Shown: positions 289 through 49,712 of the stretch, in pieces
Layout: every line of letters starts with the position of its first letter
How positions within the stretch are numbered: position 1 is the first letter of the stretch
Assembly (NCBI GenBank): GCA_026419785.1
Contig: JAODTK010005518.1
Location: 124,001-188,000 of the forward strand
From: Sclerodactyla briareus
Taxonomy: Eukaryota > Echinodermata > Holothuroidea > Dendrochirotida > Sclerodactylidae
Direction of reading: 5' to 3'
Length of the DNA: 64,000 nucleotides
Notes under the pieces: model-generated
Databases searched by the model: none
What the model saw: the letters and a program-made list of their open reading frames with translations, nothing else
Told to the model about the DNA's origin: nothing
Made by a program: the position numbers and the translations under genes

Positions 289-3082
289 ATCCTCGGGATA
301 CCCATCGGGCATGTTAGGGTGAGGCGCTTGTAAATGGATGAGAGCGACTATGCTGAAGTCGGCCCTCCCGACAAATCTGGAAAACGACTGAAACAAAAGG
401 ACGAAATAAAAAGACAGACACGCGTAAAAGAAGAAGGGGGACGATTAAGAAAGAAATCAGGACCACCGGCAGATACACGAAAATATAACGTGATCGGAAT
501 AAGCCGAGGGGTGCCGGAAATTGTCGAAGATGATCGGGAAAACGACACGAAAGGTAGGGGCGAGCAGAAACGGCGGAGGAAGGATACGAAGGGTGAAATC
601 CGAAAATCGAAAACGGAAGGGGAAAAGGGGACAGAAATTCGTGACGAGTAGAGATGGCCGGAAGCCAACGCCACAAAAGAAAAAATGGAACGTACCTAAA
701 TCGGACGGAGGAGGGGGAAAAACGTGGAACGGGACAGTAAGGGCCCAAGCAGGCCGGAGGTGTTGATGACAACTCACGTGAGTTGGAGAGAAGGACATCT
801 CGCGAGTTGCCAGCCTACGGATCATAAAAGTAACCGTTATAAGAGAGATCAAACGACCTCAAAACGAAAAACGAGCAAAGACAGGAACTCAAAGAAAAAG
901 AGGAAGTGGTGCAGAATAGGGTCAGGCCGAGGGGAGAAGAAAAGCTAAGAGGAAGTCAAAGGAAAATCTAATAAGAAAGGATTGCAGTTTTTCGATGATT
1001 TTCTCCGATGAGGCGCCGTATGCTGAAGTAAATGAGGAGATCGTAGAGGTTTAGAATTCGGAAGACAATACTTCATCGAATCACTAATCGTCCGCTACAA
1101 AGCTAGAATCCTCAAGGAATCTACGCACAGTTCCGGTGTCACGGCCGAAATACCCGGAAGTTCCCTGACGTTGCCGTCCGGAAAGAAAAGACAGGAGGTT
1201 GTGGAAAGCGTCCAGAGCCGAGATCTTCCTGTCGTTCCTAGTGATTCCCAAATAGGGAAGAGCGGACAAGGCCGTCTGAAAGCTACAGCCCAGAATTCCC
1301 GAGCAGGATGTTGCATATGCTACATTGTACGCCCGAAAGGAAGGCGAGCCCGTCGGGGAATCCAGATGCGTCCTCCATCCTCGAAGAACATGAAAAAAAC
1401 ATAATTTACAGGAATCTCAACGAAATCCCATCAGACGTACCTTACGCGCCACGGTGGTGCGATAGCTAAACGCAAGTCCGCAGGATGTGACCAATCAGCG
1501 AGTAGGAAACCGGCTGTGGGCGTGATCGAGAACACCAACGCCGGAACACCTGGAAAGATCGAACTCTTCCAGAAGGGTCCAACCGACTGAGGAGAATCGT
1601 GGTCATGATTCACTGTAATGCTTCCTTGCGCCGAAGAGTGAACGGCGTAAAGGGTCGCAACCTGTCACCCGAAAATTGACAGAACCAGCCCAGACCCCGA
1701 ATATCGATAATCCAAAACGAAAGGCGTGAGGATCCGGAATTTCCCACAAACTCCCGGAAATGAGTGTCCACCGCGTATGCCTCTGTGCCCCCGAGAAAGC
1801 CACGTCCAGTCTGGAGCGACTGCGTCTATGAGTCCAAACTTGTACCCGTCCTGAGTACAGCAGACCGTGCAGAGTCGACGGTTACTCACGACATCAGCGC
1901 ACAGTACGCTGTAGTGGAACCAAAAGTAAGCGTGCGCCACGGGGCGATATATCTAAAGGTGCGGAGTGAGCCGGCCTATCCAGGCCAAGAGCGTTCTTCC
2001 TCGAGAAGTATGTTCCAGAACCGAGTCCTCGAAGAACGCCGGCAGTAGTCTAGATGGGACGGAACTGGACGACCATAGCGCACAATACGCATTCGTGGCT
2101 CCAAAGAACCAATGTAAACAGAGGATGAAATATATCGAGGCTGCTCAAGTCGAACGGCCCAGGTAGGGCGAGTGGTTGTTTCACGAAGCGCTCAAGAACC
2201 AATTCTCCAAAAGATACCGATTCCCACGACGCGCCGTACGCTGTCGTTACGCCAAAAGCGACGTAAATCGATGGAATAGAATAGAATGGTGATTCGTCGA
2301 GGACGCACGCTGAAGCTCCAATAAGATCCCGGGATGCGTCAAAGATACCACGTGTAAACAGTCCCCTTACGTATGGTCAGAGCTGCAGGATCACCGAGGC
2401 ACCTTACGCCACCGTGCTGCCGATGAGGAACGTAAGCCAAAGCGGGCTGCTTCGGAAAGGGCGGTTACAAGGAAAAGCTCAGACAAACTCAAAGTTGATG
2501 ATGGTCTTGAAATGAGTCATCGCAGCGCAGGAAAGACGAGTAGACCCAATGTGCGACTCGCCCGATGATCTCGATCGGCGAGTGGTACCGGAGGCAGAGA
2601 TTCGACACCTCCTCTGAGCCCGGTCCTTTTCCCGGGGGCCGAGTTTCTCGAGTAGGGAGAACAGGCGAGTCGCCGCTCCTCATCGTCTGGGGTTAGTGAC
2701 GTCACGGAGGACCAGGAGGAACTCCTCTATCTACCTCCGATCCCAGTAGTAAGAAGACAGCAGCTACCGATTCTTTTCAAGGAGGAGTTGCAGGCCGAGG
2801 GCTCTCAACCGTCGACGATGTTCCCCCTGACCTCGACCAGAAATACGGGCGCCGCCGAAAAGGAGACTGGCTAGGCAACGGTAACCTTGCCTTCCACCCA
2901 GAAACAGAATCTATCAATGAAGACACGGTTATCAGCAACTTCGCAGCGACGAGGGTTACAAGGAGTTGGTCACCAAAGGTCACTAGAAATGCCTAGAAAG
3001 AGGCCAGAATCGCTTATCCGTATATGTGTATTCTGCTGCCTGGTCATTTTTGTGACTATAGTCGTCGTTGCCTTCGATAGCG
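289..3082 (+). CDS. Large exon of candidate type II membrane protein with repeated tyrosine motifs (frame broken)
   Basis: Seen: an acceptor-like pyrimidine tract ends at 288, the first ATG (334) follows an in-frame stop, and the exon can end at 3082 before gtatgt. Within it the motif A-x-Y-A-x-V, often followed by x-P-K, recurs with the tyrosine codon at 349, 1019, 1316, 1443 (one-base slip inside), 1776, 1905, 2086, 2237 and 2405. Examples are SAQYAVVEPK, SAQYAFVAPK, DAPYAVVTPK and EAPYATVLP. The stretch between 334 and about 950 is very rich in Lys, Arg and Glu. Near the end, at about 3010-3070, basic MPRKRPES precedes a hydrophobic run ICVFCCLVIFVTIVVVAF, typical of a single membrane helix. 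The copies lie in different frames and no frame is open throughout, so this is either a pseudogene or carries assembly indels. Inference: an N-terminal cytoplasmic tail with many ITIM-like tyrosine sites, then a signal-anchor helix, with an ectodomain encoded further right. The helical anchor without a signal peptide argues for type II topology. Confidence 0.55.
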
Positions 3083-3297
3083 GTATGTAGTCTCAAACTT
3101 TAGTTTTAGCGAATAGGGTGTGGAATATTTCAGTGCACGTATACTCGGATTTTCAGTGTATGAGCAGGCAGGTAGTAAGCAATTTGACTACGATTGACTG
3201 CGTTATATAGTTATTGGGTTCTCGGCGAAACATGTTAATAATAACATACGGGTCCCGAGACGACGATAATCGACCTAAAGTCGGTTACTTCTTGCAG
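3083..3297 (+). other. Short phase-1 intron of the receptor-like gene
   Basis: It starts gtatgt and ends ttcttgcag. The upstream exon leaves one base of a codon and the downstream exon supplies two, restoring GAG (Glu). The 215-nt length is ordinary for an animal intron. The phase match supports the two flanking exons being one gene. Confidence 0.5.
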
Positions 3298-3433
3298 AGA
3301 TGTTAGAACCAGTCCGGAAACAAGCGAGTAAAACGCTGGAAGAGACGGAGAACCCCATGCAAGTTTTGAACGACAGGCCAAGCGGCCAAGGAATTATATC
3401 ATGCATCGCCACGCGCGCATGCCATTGCTGGCA
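3298..3433 (+). CDS. Second exon of the receptor-like gene, start of ectodomain stalk
   Basis: Directly after the membrane-helix exon, reading in phase from the split codon, the frame gives MLEPVRKQASKTLEE and continues open through ENPMQVLND. The charged, heptad-like start would suit a short stalk or coiled coil outside the membrane. The frame stays open to a stop at 3483-3485. I place the end before a weak gtatgc at 3434 only as a suggestion, since no strong donor is visible. No ligand-binding domain (C-type lectin, fibrinogen-like, scavenger) is seen in the following sequence, so any such domain would lie in later exons I could not identify or outside the window. Confidence 0.4.
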
Positions 3434-4950
3434 CGTATGCCACCCTGTATGGAGAGTGGTTCCATTCAGTCGTTTCCCAATTTAGCCAATAGTCACCCAC
3501 CCCCAATCCTGGACAAAACGTGGAACACTCATGGATATATTGTGGCATAGGAATATTCAGGCTTCATGCTGCTACAACACTCGTATATTTCCCCTGGCCC
3601 CATATACAACATATAATGGGTTTGAAACTTACAGTCCTGCTCATGGCTTGTAGGTGAGGAAGCTAAATTTTCCGATGGGAGTGGGGTGGGGGGGGGTGGG
3701 GAATGCAACCCAACACCATTATCAGGTATAGGTGTTCCAAAGAGTTTTTGGTCCAAGCATATAGGTCTGTAGTTAGTGGGTGGGCATACTAGTAGTGCCC
3801 AATTCGTTGTATCGCATATAGCCGTATATAGTCAAGATTATTGGACTGTGGTTATCGAGTGAGCGGGAGAATATAGGTTCGATACTGTCGTATGTAAGAT
3901 AATTCCAAGTGCATTGATTTTCAGCAGGTGTAATTGTGCCCGGATAGTCTGGAGAGACATAGAGGGACATATGAATTATGAATCATTTGTACGGCAGTGG
4001 GGAACCATATATAGGCCTATTGTAGTTACAGATAGTTTGACATTTCGGCAGAAACATTTTGCGAACCGGAAACTAACTCTCCAACCACGTGGACAACTTC
4101 GAAAACAATTACAACTTTACAGCCATTTCATGTCTCGATACATAAGTGGCGTCATCGCGTTTACTCTCAACGAAAGTGTACGTTCTTATTACCAGAGCGG
4201 AGCGCTGCTATACCAGGTGACCGCGCAAGGCGCTGAAACTCGCTACCTACACACCGGAGAGAGTTTCCCATCGAAAATAGCTTTTACCTACTTTTTCCCC
4301 GAAATTTCATCTCCAATTTTCCTTCTATTATGTTGGTTCCTTTTGAATCGCAAATCGCGGAATTGTAGGCAAGACTGACCAAAGAGAGGTACCGGTGGGT
4401 GGCAAAATGGACACACTGCAACCCGATGTACCCATTTACTTTCGAACTCTTTGCAGTTTGAAGTCAGATCTAATCACGCAGTTAAAAACCTGTTTACATT
4501 GAATCACAGATACCTGGTTACCTGGAGATAATACTCCGTCAGAGAATTCTCAAGTTTTAGTGGATTCTGTCGACTATAATCTACCGAAGTCGGGGAGTAA
4601 TGGCTTTTCACGTCGAGAAGGAAGCCGATACCTGTCCTGTAGAAATTGGTAGAGAAGTCTTAGATTACATTGATTCTGCGATCGAGTAACAGTCATTATG
4701 TACATTTCATTTTAGTTTCTAGGGGGTTTTTCCGATAAAAATCGTCATACTATTGAGGATATCGTGACACATCTAACATGTACCCAACAAACACACAATG
4801 TTTTACAATGCATGTGGAAATATTTCGTCTTTTAGTTTTGCGTAACGTTAATCGGGGAGTTGTAAGAAATACTCAGGGAGGTTTTTATCTGCATTTCGAA
4901 CATAGCCGTCCTAGCGAAGGATATTTGTTCACCGTCGACTGAGCATTGGC
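3434..4950. other. No recognisable gene
   Basis: Single-copy looking sequence with a G-run near 3687-3700. A 154-codon open frame at 3914-4378 has no recognisable domain or splice context and is treated as chance. Nothing else is seen. Confidence 0.5.
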
Positions 4951-5241
4951 GGCCTCGGCGCCACAATATCAGGGGCCTGCAAGTCCAGTGATCCAGAGGG
5001 CGGCCTAGGGCTCCACAATATCAGGGGCCTGCAAGCTCAGTGACCCAGAGAGCGGCCTAGGGCTCCACAATATCAGGGGCCTGCAAGCTCAGTGACCCAG
5101 AGAGCGGCCTAGGGCTCCACAATATCAGGGGCCTGCAAGCTCAGTGATCCAGAGGGCGGCCTAGGGCTCCACAATATCAGGGGCCTGCAAGCTCAGTGAT
5201 CCGGAGGGCGGCCTAGGGCTTCCACAATATCATGGGGCCCT

Positions 5242-5284
<43 letters not shown>

Positions 5285-5413
5285 ACCAAAGCTCAGTGAC
5301 TCAGAGTGGCGGCCTAGGGGCTCCACCTGATCAGGGGCCTGCAAGCTCAGTGATCCAGAGGGCGGCCTAGGCTCCACAATATCAGGGGCCTGCAAGCTCA
5401 GTGACCCAGAGGC
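4951..5413. repeat. 52-bp minisatellite interrupted by a 42-base poly-C tract
   Basis: Eight units begin with ggcct near 4951, 5002, 5054, 5106, 5158, 5210, 5311 and 5363. The regular spacing is 51-52 bp, with the core CACAATATCAGGGGCCTGCA. Unit six is broken by an uninterrupted run of 42 C (5243-5284), after which the array resumes with lower identity. Confidence 0.95.
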
Positions 5414-17371: not shown

Positions 17372-19895
17372 GTGACGAGACCAATCCAGATGCTCAGGAA
17401 CTCAGCGATATTCTCAACTCGAGTGGCCAAAGCAGTTAGTGTCTCAACCCACCCATAACAAGGGTCATGTCCTTGACCTTATAATCACAGGGACAGTGAC
17501 ACTCCTGTGGAGGAACTGACACACATCCATGCCATGCCTTCTGATCACGCTGCGTTAACATTCACCGTCCCAATACCACAGCCTCAGCCACGTGAAGCGT
17601 ATGCAACATTTCGCCAAACTCGTCGTATTGGATTTTGTTAATTTAATCAGACCATTTACGGAAATTCCTTACCCTGACGCCATTAATTGGTCAGATTACA
17701 TAAGAAAACATGACAATTAAACCAGATATTGTCATCAGTTCCTGGACCATCATGCCCTCTCAAGACCACGGATTATTCGTCTGCGACCATGTAATCCATG
17801 GTATAACAGCGCGATCCGAAAAGCTAAGCAAAATCTGCGGGCCCCCTATGGAAGAAATTTAGGAAATCACGATTGGAGTACTTAAAGAGTCACTGCGCCA
17901 ATCAACGCGATGTTACTATGGATTGCTGAACAAAATCAGGCTGGGTGAACTCCACAAGCAGAGAGACTATTGCAACTGCTAACACAAAACAAGTGTTCAG
18001 CATAGTCAAGCAAAGGACAGTTGAGAAGCCCAGCAACACGCGCCTCGGGCTTACTACCACGAATTCTGTAAACTGCCAGACAGGTTTTCCGGTTACTTCG
18101 AGGAGAAAATTTACAATCTGCGTTCTAAATTCCCTCCCCGCCAGAACTTGCATGAGGGAGTGCACCCGACTGTTTCTTGGACTAAGTTTTTACCGGTACG
18201 GGAGGAAGAAATATCACAATAATAAATCACGTAACGGTGTTGCTCCTCTAGAATCCGCTTCCAGCCTCTGTATTGAAGAACTGCCATCGGAAACTTACTT
18301 CCAGTCATCACCTAACATTTCGTGAACAGTTCTCTACCTTGGAGGGTTTCGTCTCCACTTTGAAACTGCGTCTTGGATCCGTTCATCTCTGAAGAAACCC
18401 TCTCTAGATCCCAATTCCTCGGGAACTACAGACCTATTTCAAAACTACCGTTCCTGGGAAGTCATCGAACGTGCTGTTGCTAAACAATTCTCTGCGTGTA
18501 TCCGAACAGAAGTACGACTGCTCAGACAGTCAGCATACAGAACTTAACACAGTGTGAAACGGCGCTTACTCCGGGGGGCAAGATGACCTCCACCAATCGT
18601 TGGACGCCGGTTGGTGCGAAGCGTTTTATCATTCTGCTGGATGCTATCGTCGGCGACTTTCGACACTGTCGAACACGAGGGGAGGTTCTGAGTGTCACAG
18701 ACTAGAGATTCAGTTTTTTTTGGAGTCAGGGGTTCAGCTGCGAAGTGGTTCGAATCTTATCTGGGCGAACAAAACCAGCAAGTTGTCATCGATGGCTCTC
18801 GCTCAGATCCCACCTTACTTCGCTGGGGGTTCCACAGGGCTCAGTGATCGGCCCTGTGCTATTCACCTGCTATACCACTCCTGCAAGAACTCATTCACAA
18901 CCACAGTTTCCTGTATTGCCTATGCTGACGCTACGCAACTTTTCATAACCATTAAATCAGAGATACTGATTTGAATCATACAACGGTACAGTTTTGTATC
19001 GCAAGACGTTCACTCGTGGAGAATGGATAACTATCTCTTGCTTAACTATGCTAAAACAGAAGCCTTCAGCTATCCTTCAAGTATAAACTCTCCAGAACAG
19101 TGCCGTTTCTATTAATGACTGTCTCGTTCACCCTTCACGATCAGTTTGTAAACTTAGGAGGATGTTCAATTTTGATAGTCAAATGAAATTGTCTAATCAG
19201 GTTAAGGTCATCTGCTAAAAAGCAACTGGCTCTTGTTAAAATAAGTTCTGTCGTAGATATTGAAGAATCCTACCACTGAGATACCTTGTACATGCTTTAA
19301 TACCTTCACTTCTGAGATAAACTGTTACAGCTTGGTTTATGTTTGTCTAGTAAGGAATTGGATAAACTTCAGAGAATCCAGAATTCTGCTGCTCGTTTAG
19401 TTACCTTAAGTAAGAAACACGATTCCATTACTCCCATCCTCAAAAGGCTTATTCATTTGGCTCCCGGTCAGATCCGCATAGAGTTCAAGGTTATTCTTCT
19501 CACTTTTTAAGGGTTTAATGGCCTTGCCCCTATTTCTGTTCTGAATTAGTGTTCCTTATATTCCCCTCTAGATCTCTGCGTCGTCAGAGCAGCTCTTTGA
19601 CTGTTAGAAAGGGGAGGACTAACTTTTATGGGGATAGAGTTTTCTTTTCAATTGCGCCTACCTTGTGGATTCTTTGCCTACTGTTTTGCGTTAGTGTGAA
19701 GAACATTGATACTTTCAAGGACATCTAAAAAAAAGTCATCTTTTTCAGAGGACTTTTCTGTTCAGTAATTGTGTATGTTGGCCGATTGCATTTTTTTTTA
19801 TTGCTTTCGTTTTTGTCTACTTCTGTGAAGCGCTTTGATTATTACTTCTTGTAATGATAAGGAGATATATAAAAATAAATTATTATTATTATATT
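17372..19895 (+). mobile_element. CR1/L2-like LINE, 5'-truncated in the endonuclease domain, with intact-looking 3' end
   Basis: The left end begins within the apurinic-endonuclease domain: NPDAQELSDIL, KQLVSQPTHNKGHVLDLIIT, then MPSDHAA. It continues with PWYNSAIRKAKQNL, LPDRFSGYFEEKI, and RT blocks KKPSLDPN, NYRPISKLPFLGKVIERAV, QSAYR, GSAAKWFESYLGEQNQQVV and GVPQGSVIGPVLF. The catalytic box reads YADATQL instead of Y-A-D-D, so the second Asp is lost. The C-terminal part has LQRIQNSAARLVT and LTFKGFNGLAPIS. The 3' end, gaagcgctttgattatt...ttgtaatgataaggagatatataaa followed by (att)n, is typical of this LINE group. Frames change many times, so it is a dead copy. It abuts the minus-strand RT element head-to-head. 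Confidence 0.9.
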
Positions 19896-38799: not shown

Positions 38800-40985
38800 A
38801 AACTTAGAGACCTCGACCTGACCCCAAACGAATGGGATCAGTACTCAGCAATGGGGAATACAACAAACCAAAGTATGAGGCCTTTACCCCGCCTTTAACA
38901 AAAACAATAGGGTTTATGGAATCACCATAAAGAAGAGACACACCTAATTTCAACCTGATCAGACCCAACCTTCTTGACTTATCGTGATTACAGGGTTTTC
39001 ACCCCCCTGACTTTGAACTCGGTTTGACCTCAGAGGACCTTGACGGACCCAAACACATATAGGGTGTCCTATACTCACCATGGGGAACTCCCATACCACG
39101 TATGAGCTTCATCATCCAAGTGGGGTCAAAGTTATCGTGCTTTACAAGCCAAAATGGCTAAAATATAAAATTTTCACCATTTTCTATTTCGATACAAAAT
39201 TTCACTCCTGCCGAACCAAAAACAATAGGGTCCGATCCTCATAGGAAAGCTTTACACCTAATTTAAACTTGATCAGACCAACAATTAGGAAGTACTTCGT
39301 GTTTACAAGTGTTTGCCAGACTTGACCTCTCGGGACCCTCAGATGACCTCTGACCTGATCTCAAAACGATAGGGTTCATGGACTCATCATGGGGAACACA
39401 CATAACAAGTATGAGCGTTTCATCCACCGGGTGGGGTCGAGTTACCGTGTTTACAAGCCAAAATTGGCCGAATATCAATTTCACAAATTTTCTTATTTCG
39501 ACTCAAATTCACCCGACCTGAACCAGAAACAATCGGGTTCCTGTATTACCCAGAAGAAAGCTATACACGATGATTTTCGACTTGATCAGGGGACCAAACC
39601 ATTCTGGACTTATCGTGTTACAAGGTTTCAGACTTTGACCTCTGGTGACCTCAGATGACTGCTGCCTGACCCCAAAACAATAGGGTCAGTACTCATCATG
39701 GGAACACACATCACCAAGTATGACTCATCCATCCACGGTGGGGTCGAGGTTATCGTGTTAGAAGCCGAAATTGGCCAAAAATATTGAATTTTCACACATT
39801 TTTATATTTTCGACAAAATGCACTCCGATCGACCCAAAAAACAATAGGGTTCCTGTACTCCCCATAAGGAAATTATACACCTAATTTCAAACTGATCAGA
39901 CCAACCATTTGGACTTATCTGTGTTCACAGGTTTTCAGACGTTGCACTCTGGTGACTCAGATGAACCTGACCTGACCTCCAAAAACGATAGGGTTCATGT
40001 ACTCATCATGGGAACACAATACCAAGTATGAGCTTCATCATCCAGGTGGGGTCGCGTTACCGTGCTTACAAGCCAAAATGGCAAAAATCTCGAATTTCCA
40101 AAATTTTCTATTTCGACAAAATTCACTACGGACCCTTAACCAAAAACAATAGGGTTCCGTAACCCATAAGAAAAGTATACACCTATTTCAACTTTGATCA
40201 GAACAACCATTCTGGACTTATGTGGTACAAAAGGTTTTAGACTTTGCCCTCTGGTACCTCAGATGACCTTGACCCTACCCCAAACAATAGGGGTCATGTA
40301 ATCAACATGGGGAACACAATTACAAAGTATGAGCTTCATCTCCAGGTGGGGTCGGAGTTATCGTGATTATAAGCAAAAATTGGACAAAAGATCGAATTTT
40401 CACAATTTTCTATTTTCGACAAAAATTCACCCGACCTGGACCAAAAACAATAGGGTTCCTGTACTCCCTAAGAAAGCTAACACCTAATTTCAACTTGATC
40501 AGACAACCATTATGGACTTCATCATGTTTACACGGTTCTCAGTCTTTGACCACTGTTGACTCAGATGACTCTGGACAGGACCCCAAAACAATCGGGGTCA
40601 TGAATCATCATGGGGAACACACATCCTAAGTGTGAGCTTCATCCATCAGGTGGGGCGAGTATCGTGTTTACAAGCCAAAATTGGCCAAAATATACACACA
40701 GCGTTTCACAAATTTTCTTTTCGACCCCAAATTCACATCCCCGGACCTGCAGATGTCACAAACAATAGGGTTCCTTACTCCCCATAAGAAAGCTATACAC
40801 CTAATTTCAATGATCAGACCAACCATTCTGGGACCATTCGTGTTTACAAGGTTTTCAGACTTTGACCTCTGGTGACCTCAGATGACCTCTGACCTGACCC
40901 AAAAAACAATAGGCGTTCAGGTACTCATCATGGGAACACAACTACCAAGAATGAGCCGACCTACCAGACTCGAGTCAAGTTATGG
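38800..40985. repeat. ~300-bp tandem array inside element A
   Basis: The anchor cctcagatgacctctgacctg recurs near 38810, 39033, 39342, 39651, 39957, 40258, 40561 and 40880, with typical steps of 301-319 bp. Units include atagggttcatgtactcatc, gagcttcatccatccaggtg and cttgatcagaccaaccattc. The same unit occurs three times at 61.5-62.1 kb. Confidence 0.9.
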
Positions 40986-45470: not shown

Positions 45471-48400
45471 CAGAATTTACAAGCCGTATATGATGGATTG
45501 CTGAACTGTGAACTGTTGTACAACAATAAATAGCATTCATGTACCCTATAGGAAGAACAACCCACCAAGGTTGAACTCGATCCCACCAGGCATGTTGGAC
45601 TTTGCCTGCTTACAAGGTTAACAAGTGCCCAAACATACCAGAATTTTACAGTTTCCCTTTTTGCCAAGTAGACCCCTGCTCATTACACAAGAAATAGCGT
45701 TCATGGGACTCATCATGGAAGCACACCCCAGTTGGAACTTGATCCCACCAGGCATGTTGGATTTGCATGGATAACAAGGGAAAGTGCCAAAATGCCAGAA
45801 TTTTACAAGTTTCCACTTTTTGCCAATTGACCCCTACGCATACAACAAATAAAAACGTTCTGTACTCATCATGGGAAGCACACCACCAAGTTGAACTGAT
45901 CCCACCAGGCATGTGAGACTTTGGCCTGATACAAGGTAAAATTGCCCAAAAATATAAGAATTCACAAGGTTGCCACTTTTTGCCCAAAATGACCACTGAC
46001 CCATGAAACAATAATAGCGTCATTACTCACCCTGAGAAAGCACAGCCACCAAGTTTGAACTTGATCCCACTAGGCATGTTGGCCTTTGCCTGATTACAAG
46101 TTAAAAGTGACCAAAATACCAGAATTTTCAAGTTTCCAGTTTTTGCCCAAAAATGACCCACTATCATCCACAAATAAATAGCGTTCATGTACTCATCATG
46201 GCAACACACCCAACAAGTTTGAAACTTGATCCACAGGCAGTTGGACTTTGCCCTGATTACAAGGTAATGCACAAAATACCAGAATTTTACAAGTTTCCAC
46301 TTTTGTGCCCAAATGACCCCTACCATACAACAATACATAATAGCGCTTCATGTACTAATCATGGGAAGCACACCACCAAGTTTGAACTTGATCCCCCCAG
46401 GCATGTTGACTTTGCCTGATTACAAGGTAAATTGCCCAAAATACAGATATTTCACAAGTTCCCACTTTTTGACCAAAATTGACCCCATACACATACAACC
46501 ATAAATAGCGTTCATGTACGCACCATGAGAAACACCCACAAAGTGACTGATCCACTAGGCATGTGGACTTTGCCGGATTACAATGTAAAATGCCCAAAAT
46601 TACAGAATTTTACAAGTTTCCACTTTTTGCCCAAAATGACCCCCTACTCATAAAACAAAATAGCGTCATGTACGCATCATGGAAAGCACACCCACCAAGT
46701 TTGAACTTGATTCCCACCAGGCATGTTTGACTTTGCCGATTAAAGGTTAAAATTGCCCAAAATACCAGAATTCTACGAGTTTACATTTTGCCCAAATTGA
46801 CCCACTACTCATTCAACAAGAAAGAGCGTTATGTACTCATCATGGGAACACACCACCAAGTTTGAACTTGATCCACCAGGCATAGTGGACTTTGCCTGAT
46901 TACAAGGTAAAATTGCCCCAAAATACCAGAATTTAACAAAGTTCCATTTTGCCACAAAGTGCCCCCCCTACCATACAACAATAAATAGCGGCATGTACAA
47001 ACCATGAGAAGCACACCACCCAAGTTTTACTTGAGCCCATAGGCATGTGGACTTTGCCTGCATTACAGGTAAAAGTGCCCAAAATACCAGAATTTTACAA
47101 GTTTCCCACTTCGCCCAAAATTGACACCTACTCATACAACAATGAATAGCGTTATGTCCTAATCATGGGAAGCACACCACCAAGTTTGAACTTGATCCCC
47201 CCAGGCAGTAGACTTTGCCGATTACAAGGGTAAAATTGACCAAAATACAGACTTTTCACCAAGTTTCCATTTTTGCACGAAATTGACCCCCTACCCATTA
47301 CCAACCTACACAGAGCGTTCATGTACTCACCATGAGAAGCCACACCCCCCAAGTTGAACTTGAACCCACTAGGCTGTTGGACTTTGCCTGATTACAAGTA
47401 AAGTGCCCCAAAAAATACCAGAATTTTACAAAGTGTCCACGTTTTGCCCAAAATTGACCCCTACTCTACACCAAAAATAGTGCGTTCATGTACTCATCAT
47501 GGAAGCAACCACAGTTTGAACCTGATCCCACCAGGCATGTTTGACTTGCCTGGTTACAAGGTAAAAATGCCAAAATACCAGAATTTTTACAGTTTCCACT
47601 TTTGCCCAAATTGGACACCGACTCATAGCAACAAATAAATAGGGTAGTACTCACATGAGACGCACACCCACCAAGTTTTGAACTTGATCCCAATAGGGCC
47701 TGTGGGACGTTGCCTGAGACAAGGTAAAAGGCCCAAAATACCAGAATTTTACAAGTTTTCCACTATTTTCCAAAATTGACCACCTAATCATACAAACAAT
47801 AAATAGAGTTTCATGTACTCACATGGAAAGCACACCCAAGACAAACAAAAATGTTGAAACTGATCCCACCAGGCATGTTTGACTTGCCTGATACAGGTAT
47901 AAAATTGCCCAAAATACCAGAATTTTTACAAGTTTCCACTTTTTGCCCCAATTGACCACCTTCAGACAACAATAAATAGCGTTCATGTACTCATAATGGG
48001 AAGCCCACCACAGTTTGAACTTGATCCAACCAGCATGTTAGACTTTGTCGGATTACAAGGTTGAAAATTGCCCAAAATACCAGAATTTCACAAGTCCCAC
48101 TTTTGCCAAAAATGACCCACTACCATACAACAAGAAATAGCGTTCATGTACGCACCATGAGAAAGCACACCCACCAAAGTTTGAACTTAATCCACCTCCT
48201 AGGCATTGTTGGACTTTGCCTGATTAAAATGTAAAAGGCCAAAATACTCGACTTTTACAGGTTTCACCTTTTTGCCCAAAAATTGACCCCCTACTATTAC
48301 AACAATAAATAGCAGTTTCATGTACTCATCATGGGAAAAGCACCACCCACAAGTTTGAACTTGATCCCACAGGCTGTTTAGACTTTGAATGATTACAAGG

Positions 48401-49712
48401 TAAAATTGCCCAAAAACGTACAGAATTCTACACAGTTTCCACTTTTTTCACAAAATGACCCCCCTATCCACAACAATAAACTAGCGTTATGTACGCATCA
48501 TGGGGAAACCACACCCACCAAGTTTGAACTTGATTCCATAAGGCAGGTTGGCTTGCCTGAGACAAGGTAAAATGCCCAAAATACCAGAATTACAAGTTTC
48601 CCACTTTTGCCCCAACTTGACCCCCTACCCATAAAAAAATAAAATAGGTTCATGTAACCACCATTGAGAAGCACACCCACAAGTTTAACTTTGATCCCAC
48701 TAGGCATGTGGACTTTGCATGAGTACAAGGTAAAAGTGCCCAAAATACCAGAACGTTACAAGTTTCCCCACTTTTCGCCCAAAATTGACCCCATACCATA
48801 CAACAGAATAGCGTCATTTAACGAATCATGGGAAGCACACCCACCAAGTTTGAACTGATCACCAGGCATGTTAGACTTTGCTGTTACAAGGTAAAATTGC
48901 ACAAAATCCCAGAATTTCAACAATATTTCCACTTTTGCCGAAATTGACCCCCTACCCGACAACAACAATAGCGTTCATGTACTCACCATGAGAAGCAACC
49001 CACCAAGTTTGGAACTTGATCCCATAGGCATGTTGGACTTGCGTGAACAAGGTAAAAGTGCCTAAAATACCAGAGATTTACAAGTTTAACTTTTTGCCCA
49101 AAATGACCCCCTACTCATACAACAATAAATAGGTTCAGTATCACAGGGAAAGCACACCCACCAAGTTTGAACCTGATCCCACCAGGCATGTTTGACTTTG
49201 CCTGATTACAGGCTAAAATTAGCCCAAACTACCAGAAATTTTACAAGTTTCCATGTTTGCCCAAAATTGACCCCCTACTCATCAAAAAAAAATAGCGTTT
49301 ATGTACTTCATCATGGGAACACACCCACCAAGTTTGAACATGATCCCCCAGGCATGTTGGACTTTGCCGATACAGGTTGAAAGTGCCCAAAATACCAGAA
49401 TTTACAAGTTTACAAACTTTTTGCCCAAAATTGAACCCCCTACCCATACAACTATAAAATGCGTCATGTAATCATCATGGGAAAACAACCACCGTTTGAA
49501 CAGATCCCACCAGGCATGTTGAGATTTGCTGCTGACAAGGTGAAAGTGCCCAAAATTCTAGAATTTTACAAGTTTCCAATTTTTGCCCAAAGTTGACCCC
49601 TACTCATCAAACAATAACAATAGGAGTCATGTCCTCATCATGGGAAGCACCACCCACAAGTTTGAACTTGAGTCACACAGCATGTTGGACTTAGCTCTGA
49701 TAACAAGGTAGG
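45471..49712. repeat. 163-bp satellite array of about 26 units inside element B
   Basis: The anchor accagaattttacaagtttc recurs from 45471 to 49558 with a mean step of 163.5 bp. Units contain ttgacccctactcatacaac, atagcgttcatgtactcatc, the block aagtttgaacttgatcccac and caggcatgttggactttgcc. Many units lack single bases in homopolymers. Two diagnostic variants, catcatggga/accaggc/aaaattgcc and caccatgaga/actaggc/aaaagtgcc, are interspersed. Confidence 0.95.

Follow-up and report, generated by a model that had tools for sequence, protein, structure and literature searches.

A candidate type II membrane protein with repeated ITIM-like tyrosine sites ahead of a single helix in the sea cucumber Sclerodactyla briareus

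Vertebrate receptors with several ITIMs, such as LILRB, SIRP-alpha, PECAM-1 and the Siglecs, carry two to four of these sites and are as a rule type I membrane proteins. In amphioxus, BbLcLRR is described as an inhibitory LRR receptor with three major Lck sites, Y539, Y655 and Y690 (PMC8211107). The same account gives the ITIM form as I/V/LxYxxL/V, and its authors count the DDYATV and HDYSEV sites of BbLcLRR as ITIMs even though neither has a hydrophobic residue at -2 (PMC8211107). In Jurkat cells, BbLcLRR is reported to be phosphorylated by Lck and to associate with SHIP1, and less with SHP1/2 (PMC8211107).

Among the possible readers of such sites, the N-SH2 domain of SHP2 is described as preferring Ile, Leu or Val at -2 and a hydrophobic residue at +3 (PMC10369915), a -2 requirement that has been called unusual (PMC7337045). 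Preferences at +1 are reported from two kinds of experiment: with a PD-1 peptide, the SHP2 N-SH2 domain favours Ala or Thr over Gly, and in phosphosite screens the residues that the wild-type domain selects are large hydrophobic ones, His or Asn, with Ala at +1 emerging as the choice of the T42A mutant N-SH2 (PMC10369915).

Here we describe a locus in a 64,000-nucleotide stretch of the S. briareus genome (the window; assembly GCA_026419785.1, contig JAODTK010005518.1, positions 124,001-188,000) that we read as a host gene encoding a type II membrane protein, its long tail of repeated ITIM-like sites providing phosphotyrosine docking. We hold this reading with about even confidence. The candidate gene centers on a large exon at 289-3082 of the + strand, bounded by an acceptor ending at 288 (TTTTTTTTTCCAG before 289) and by a donor, GTATGT, at 3083. 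This exon would comprise a short part of the 5′ UTR and then tail coding sequence from an ATG at 334 to a membrane helix, in frames that are broken; its open N-terminal piece in the list of open reading frames, 105 aa at 334-648, starts MDESDYAEV. The hydrophobic helix LIRICVFCCLVIFVTIVVV lies at 3013-3069, in frame 0 relative to 289, and scores 3.09 on the Kyte-Doolittle scale; four separate stretches in the six frames of the window, the helix included, are this hydrophobic. Its N flank is basic: the net charge is +2 over the 15 residues that precede the helix and -1 over the 15 that follow it. From these flank charges a type II orientation is predicted, which would make the repeated sites N-terminal to the helix a cytoplasmic tail. 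TTGCAG stands directly before 3298, where a candidate second exon (3298-3434, placed by consensus splice sites only) continues the helix frame through a phase-matched 3082/3298 join into charged, stalk-like sequence, EMLEPVRKQASKTLEETENPMQVLND.... The sequence-only reading that first drew attention to this locus had listed a hydrophobic helix with a basic flank, a gt donor and a phase-matched next exon, and all of these are present. It had ended the second exon at 3433; the phase-matched exon stands, but its end moves to 3434, since the next GT is found by eye at 3435.

Within the large exon, eight unbroken Y-A-x-(V/I/L) sites span 349-2416 of the + strand, and three-frame translation reveals a ninth Y-A site at 1443 as V-P-Y-A in one frame and T-V-V in the next. 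With coordinates that start at the tyrosine codon, the sites are SDYAEV (site 1, 349-360), APYAEV (site 2, 1019-1030), VAYATL (site 3, 1316-1327), VPYA followed by TVV across the frame change (site 4, 1443-1456), TAYASV (site 5, 1776-1787), AQYAVVEPK (site 6, 1905-1916), AQYAFVAPK (site 7, 2086-2097), APYAVVTPK (site 8, 2237-2248) and APYATVLPM (site 9, 2405-2416). Relative to 289, they occupy frames 0, 1, 1, 2 then 1 (the split site), 2, 2, 0, 1 and 1. Nine copies of a motif close to (S/D/E)-A-(P/Q)-Y-A-x-V-x-P-K had been claimed; nine Y-A sites do exist, one of them frame-split, but fewer than nine fit the full motif, with P-K following it at three (1905, 2086 and 2237) and Ala standing ahead of P/Q at five. 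The same three P-K sites, 6 to 8, belong to a 37-nt DNA repeat family (D1, copies at 1888, 2069 and 2220), in which two copies are 76% and 62% identical to the reference. These three best copies are thus related beyond the motif itself, their flanks being common at the DNA level.

Clustering of this kind did not arise in shuffled sequence. The pattern A-x-Y-A-x-(V/I/L) occurs five times in 289-3082, against a mean of 0.013 and a maximum of 1 in 1,000 dinucleotide shuffles of the exon, and is found neither in the following 60.9 kb of the + strand nor in the 64 kb of the - strand. Likewise, YAxV occurs seven times in the exon (shuffle mean 0.115, maximum 2), compared with four times elsewhere on the + strand and three times on the - strand. 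Across the assembly (319,486,128 bases in 3171 contigs), GANGCNCCNTAYGCNGNNGTN gave three matches in 319 Mb and its reversed-pattern control three, two of the three true matches lying in the focal exon on the same strand, 1.2 kb apart. The pattern GCNCCGTAYGCNGNNGTN gave four matches versus five for its control, and two of the four were in the focal exon, at the same two sites. Since match and control counts are similar, the pattern is no commoner genome-wide than chance would have it, and it is the clustering here that stands out. With shuffles and with genome-wide counts set against reversed controls, a chance origin of the motif cluster was rejected. The 20 kb upstream held scattered YA.(V/I/L) matches on both strands and no cluster. 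Third-base variation among eight motif copies was also considered (51 of 84 third bases differ, against 7 of 84 first and 0 of 84 second bases) and was discounted as evidence, because choosing copies by a protein pattern forces such a result.

How well these sites match ITIMs depends on the residue at -2. Ser at -2 is also allowed in the ITIM form, and the related ITSM form is T-x-Y-x-x-V. On this basis, three of the nine sites have the strict ITIM form (SDYAEV at 349, VAYATL at 1316 and the frame-split VPYA/TV at 1443), and one, TAYASV, has the ITSM form. Position -2 is Ala in five sites, Val in two, Ser in one and Thr in one. Ile, Leu or Val at -2, expected in most sites of a canonical SHP2 N-SH2 ligand, is therefore present in two of nine. 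The five Ala sites would be weak ligands for a vertebrate-like SHP2 N-SH2 domain because Ile, Leu or Val is preferred at -2; they could instead be bound by SH2 domains of SHIP-type phosphatases, kinases or adaptors, or by a reader particular to the lineage. Support for docking comes from amphioxus, where receptor sites with no hydrophobic residue at -2 are reported to be phosphorylated nonetheless and the receptor to be SHIP1-associated (PMC8211107). Ala at +1, present at all nine sites, counts for SHP2 docking by the PD-1 peptide result and against it by the phosphosite screens of the wild-type domain (PMC10369915). Overall, the proposal of ITIM-like docking is plausible for a tail with three strict ITIMs, but weaker than originally put, given Ala at -2 in five of nine sites.

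The reading frames are a separate matter. The large exon is not one open frame: the three frames of 334-3082 contain 22, 36 and 40 (98 in total), with sites in all three frames and stops between them, and a greedy stop-free path across this interval requires 19 frame switches. That crossing is equalled or bettered in 2 of 231 other blocks, and the 98 sense-strand stops are fewer than expected from shuffles (128.8, SD 8.4). The antisense strand of 334-3082 needs 18 switches and has 77 stops; being as open as the sense strand, it means that low stop density alone cannot fix the coding strand. What indicates the + strand is the motifs, the helix and the splice sites. Three-base periodicity averages 0.92 in the exon against 0.75, a weak signal equalled by 6 of 116 overlapping blocks. 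In sum, a multi-site tyrosine tail before a single helix, as first described, keeps the backing of the motif statistics and the flank charge, but its frames are broken.

Conserved genes in the same assembly allow these breaks to be calibrated. Using a frame-tolerant aligner and human HSPA8, we counted 33 frame changes in 2,628 nt of HSP70 exon pieces on contig C2424 (12.6 per kb), with 9 of 12 pieces affected. Pieces of PRP8, an essential and usually single-copy gene, were read in three frames against PDB on contig C897 and gave 11 frame changes in 588 nt (18.7 per kb), with three of four pieces affected; in both genes, poor alignment of divergent stretches may account for some of the counted changes. 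Decayed copies might also be present among the HSP70 pieces, yet the higher rate is that of PRP8. As a side observation, 13 of the 14 genomic HSP70 exon matches lie on C2424 in several partial copies, which looks like a tandem cluster or incomplete assembly. Simulated intact exons of the focal length, given indels only, required 9-18 switches (5-95% range) when errors followed the HSP70 rate and 11.45-21 when they followed that of PRP8, compared with the 19 observed. The frame breaks of the focal exon are thus at, or slightly above, the level produced by assembly error alone, and every 100 bases of exon in this assembly contain about 1-2 errors that break the frame, which probably stem from unpolished long reads. 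Motifs in three frames with stops between them, as found in the raw sequence, do not decide against the reading, because conserved genes here show breaks of the same kind. For other findings from this assembly, broken frames alone are no evidence of pseudogenes, and frame-based inference needs care.

These rates bear directly on whether the locus is a decayed pseudogene of such a receptor, in which the motifs survive by descent and the frames are truly broken. Stops numbering 22, 36 and 40, and 19 switches over 2.75 kb, slightly above the HSP70-based prediction, are what decay would leave; yet with HSP70 and PRP8 broken at 12.6 and 18.7 per kb, most of the breaks need no decay, and the motif core, the splice consensus and the helix have all been kept, so we consider a pseudogene unlikely. 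A different concern is that 289-3082 does not encode one protein at all, being a mixture of exons and introns or several short genes, such that the nine motifs never share a tail. The gaps of 670 nt between sites 1 and 2 and of 333 nt between sites 4 and 5 would suit this arrangement, as would low three-base periodicity, which drops under the window mean in 201-nt windows starting at 1101-1401 and 1551-1701. Against this, the motifs share a strand, their whole cluster fits into 2.1 kb, and it is enclosed by a single acceptor and a single donor, the latter in phase with the helix; we judge such a patchwork very improbable.

The gene could also be real and its motifs serve something other than phosphotyrosine docking. 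Y-x-x-hydrophobic is the consensus of an adaptor-binding sorting signal, which all nine sites fit whereas the strict ITIM form is found in three, and the YAxV/L units might equally be structural, or act as spacers in a disordered protein. Although the Ala at +1 was itself fixed by the search, the copies have some flanking sequence in common as well, and nine of them over ~690 codons would exceed what a sorting signal needs. A role limited to sorting or structure therefore seems to us improbable, though not remotely so.

Searches for relatives of the locus and for its ectodomain were blunted by the frame-breaking errors of the assembly, so their negative results on both counts are weak. A DNA search of the genome returned the window itself as sole match, with no haplotype or paralogue copy. 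The protein piece from 1764-2045 found itself and one match at E 3.6, that from 2875-3081 found only itself, and neither identified a paralogue in the genome. The other loci matching the patterns (L003, L004 and L031) have no YA.(V/I/L) cluster: L003 has five further matches in 3 kb, one of them on the strand of the pattern match, and L004 and L031 have one each, both on the opposite strand. Pfam matched the + frames of 1-30 kb just once, at a reverse-transcriptase fragment (RVT_1, + strand, about 18790-18885, E 0.0037) under the curated cut-off, and PDB gave nothing below E 0.07 in the + frames of 3.1-18.1 kb. No Pfam match was obtained on the minus strand at 15-20 kb (three frames) or 51-58 kb (one frame); broken LINE-like frames were seen by eye on this strand at 15.6-17.3 kb, where Pfam likewise matched nothing. 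The C-type lectin domain (Lectin_C, PF00059) has 10 matches in the genome and none on the focal contig, an indel level of about 1-2% making this search insensitive. GFP had no match in the genome, nor in any of 14 control genomes, and COX1 had none where 8 of 14 controls matched; the GFP and lectin-domain results, blunted in the same way, lend no support to an amphioxus origin. Split HSP70 and PRP8 exons and the lectin domains suit an animal genome. Scans for tRNAs and against Rfam (gathering thresholds) returned nothing.

Repetitive DNA is found elsewhere in the window. Tandem arrays at 38899-40956 (302 bp x 6.7) and 45519-49710 (about 161 bp x 25.6) have related starts of their consensus units, with a local alignment score of 95 between the consensuses where 500 shuffles reached no more than 46, and by this similarity look like one satellite family. 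At 4948-5412, nine copies of a 52-bp unit are interrupted by 42 consecutive C, which may be an artefact of assembly.

Taken as a type II protein with a docking tail, the product of the focal gene would begin with a long, charged cytoplasmic tail holding about nine Y-A-x-V/L sites, cross the membrane once through the helix, and continue through a charged stalk into an ectodomain. Engagement of the ectodomain would lead Src-family-type kinases to phosphorylate tail tyrosines, and the phosphorylated sites would then dock SH2 proteins, whether SHP- or SHIP-type phosphatases or adaptors, with site repetition adding avidity. Judged by its motifs, the tail probably docks SH2 proteins. The motif cluster, the helix, the splice consensus and the assembly's error level are observed directly, while intact coding, disorder of the tail, its topology, phosphorylation, docking and the sign of the signal are all inferred. 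A more specific proposal, which we advance tentatively and regard as rather doubtful, is that of an intact, expressed invertebrate type II receptor whose nine sites, mostly with Ala at -2, form a lineage-specific phosphotyrosine hub, with ITIM- and ITSM-form sites in one tail and an SH2 reader unlike vertebrate SHP2 in the residue it prefers at -2.

A literature search yielded nothing that we recognised as a repeated-YAxV type II protein like the focal one, and the nearest described systems each share part of its layout. The sequence-only reading had also raised an immune role and a likeness to predicted type II amphioxus proteins with P-Y-A-V repeats, both of which are conjectural. BbLcLRR also has several cytoplasmic tyrosine sites, and its D-Y-A-T-V and D-Y-S-E-V are near the focal D-Y-A-E-V and Y-A-T-V; it is an LRR receptor with three major Lck sites, whereas the focal protein would have about nine sites N-terminal to the helix, and the two are likened by motif only. 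The scaffolds p130Cas (YxxP) and IRS (YxxM) and the adaptors PAG, LAX and LAT, likened here by description only, resemble it in carrying numerous tyrosine sites of one kind within a disordered region and in exploiting avidity, but their motif differs, and Cas and IRS do not span the membrane. Also similar in layout are the ITIM-bearing type II C-type lectin receptors of the Dectin-1/Dectin-2 cluster, with an N-terminal tyrosine-site tail, one helix and a stalk; their tails are short with a single site, and at the focal locus no lectin domain was found downstream in the + frames scanned. LILRB, SIRP-alpha, PECAM-1 and the Siglecs share repeated cytoplasmic Y-x-x-V/L sites, many with Ala at +1, and differ in having, as a rule, Ile, Val, Leu or Ser at -2, where the focal type II protein has mostly Ala. 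Provided that the gene is intact, its single type II tail would hold nine docking sites, more than the two to four of these vertebrate ITIM receptors, and would let one ask in a natural setting how SH2 avidity and specificity depend on the number of sites and on the residue at -2.
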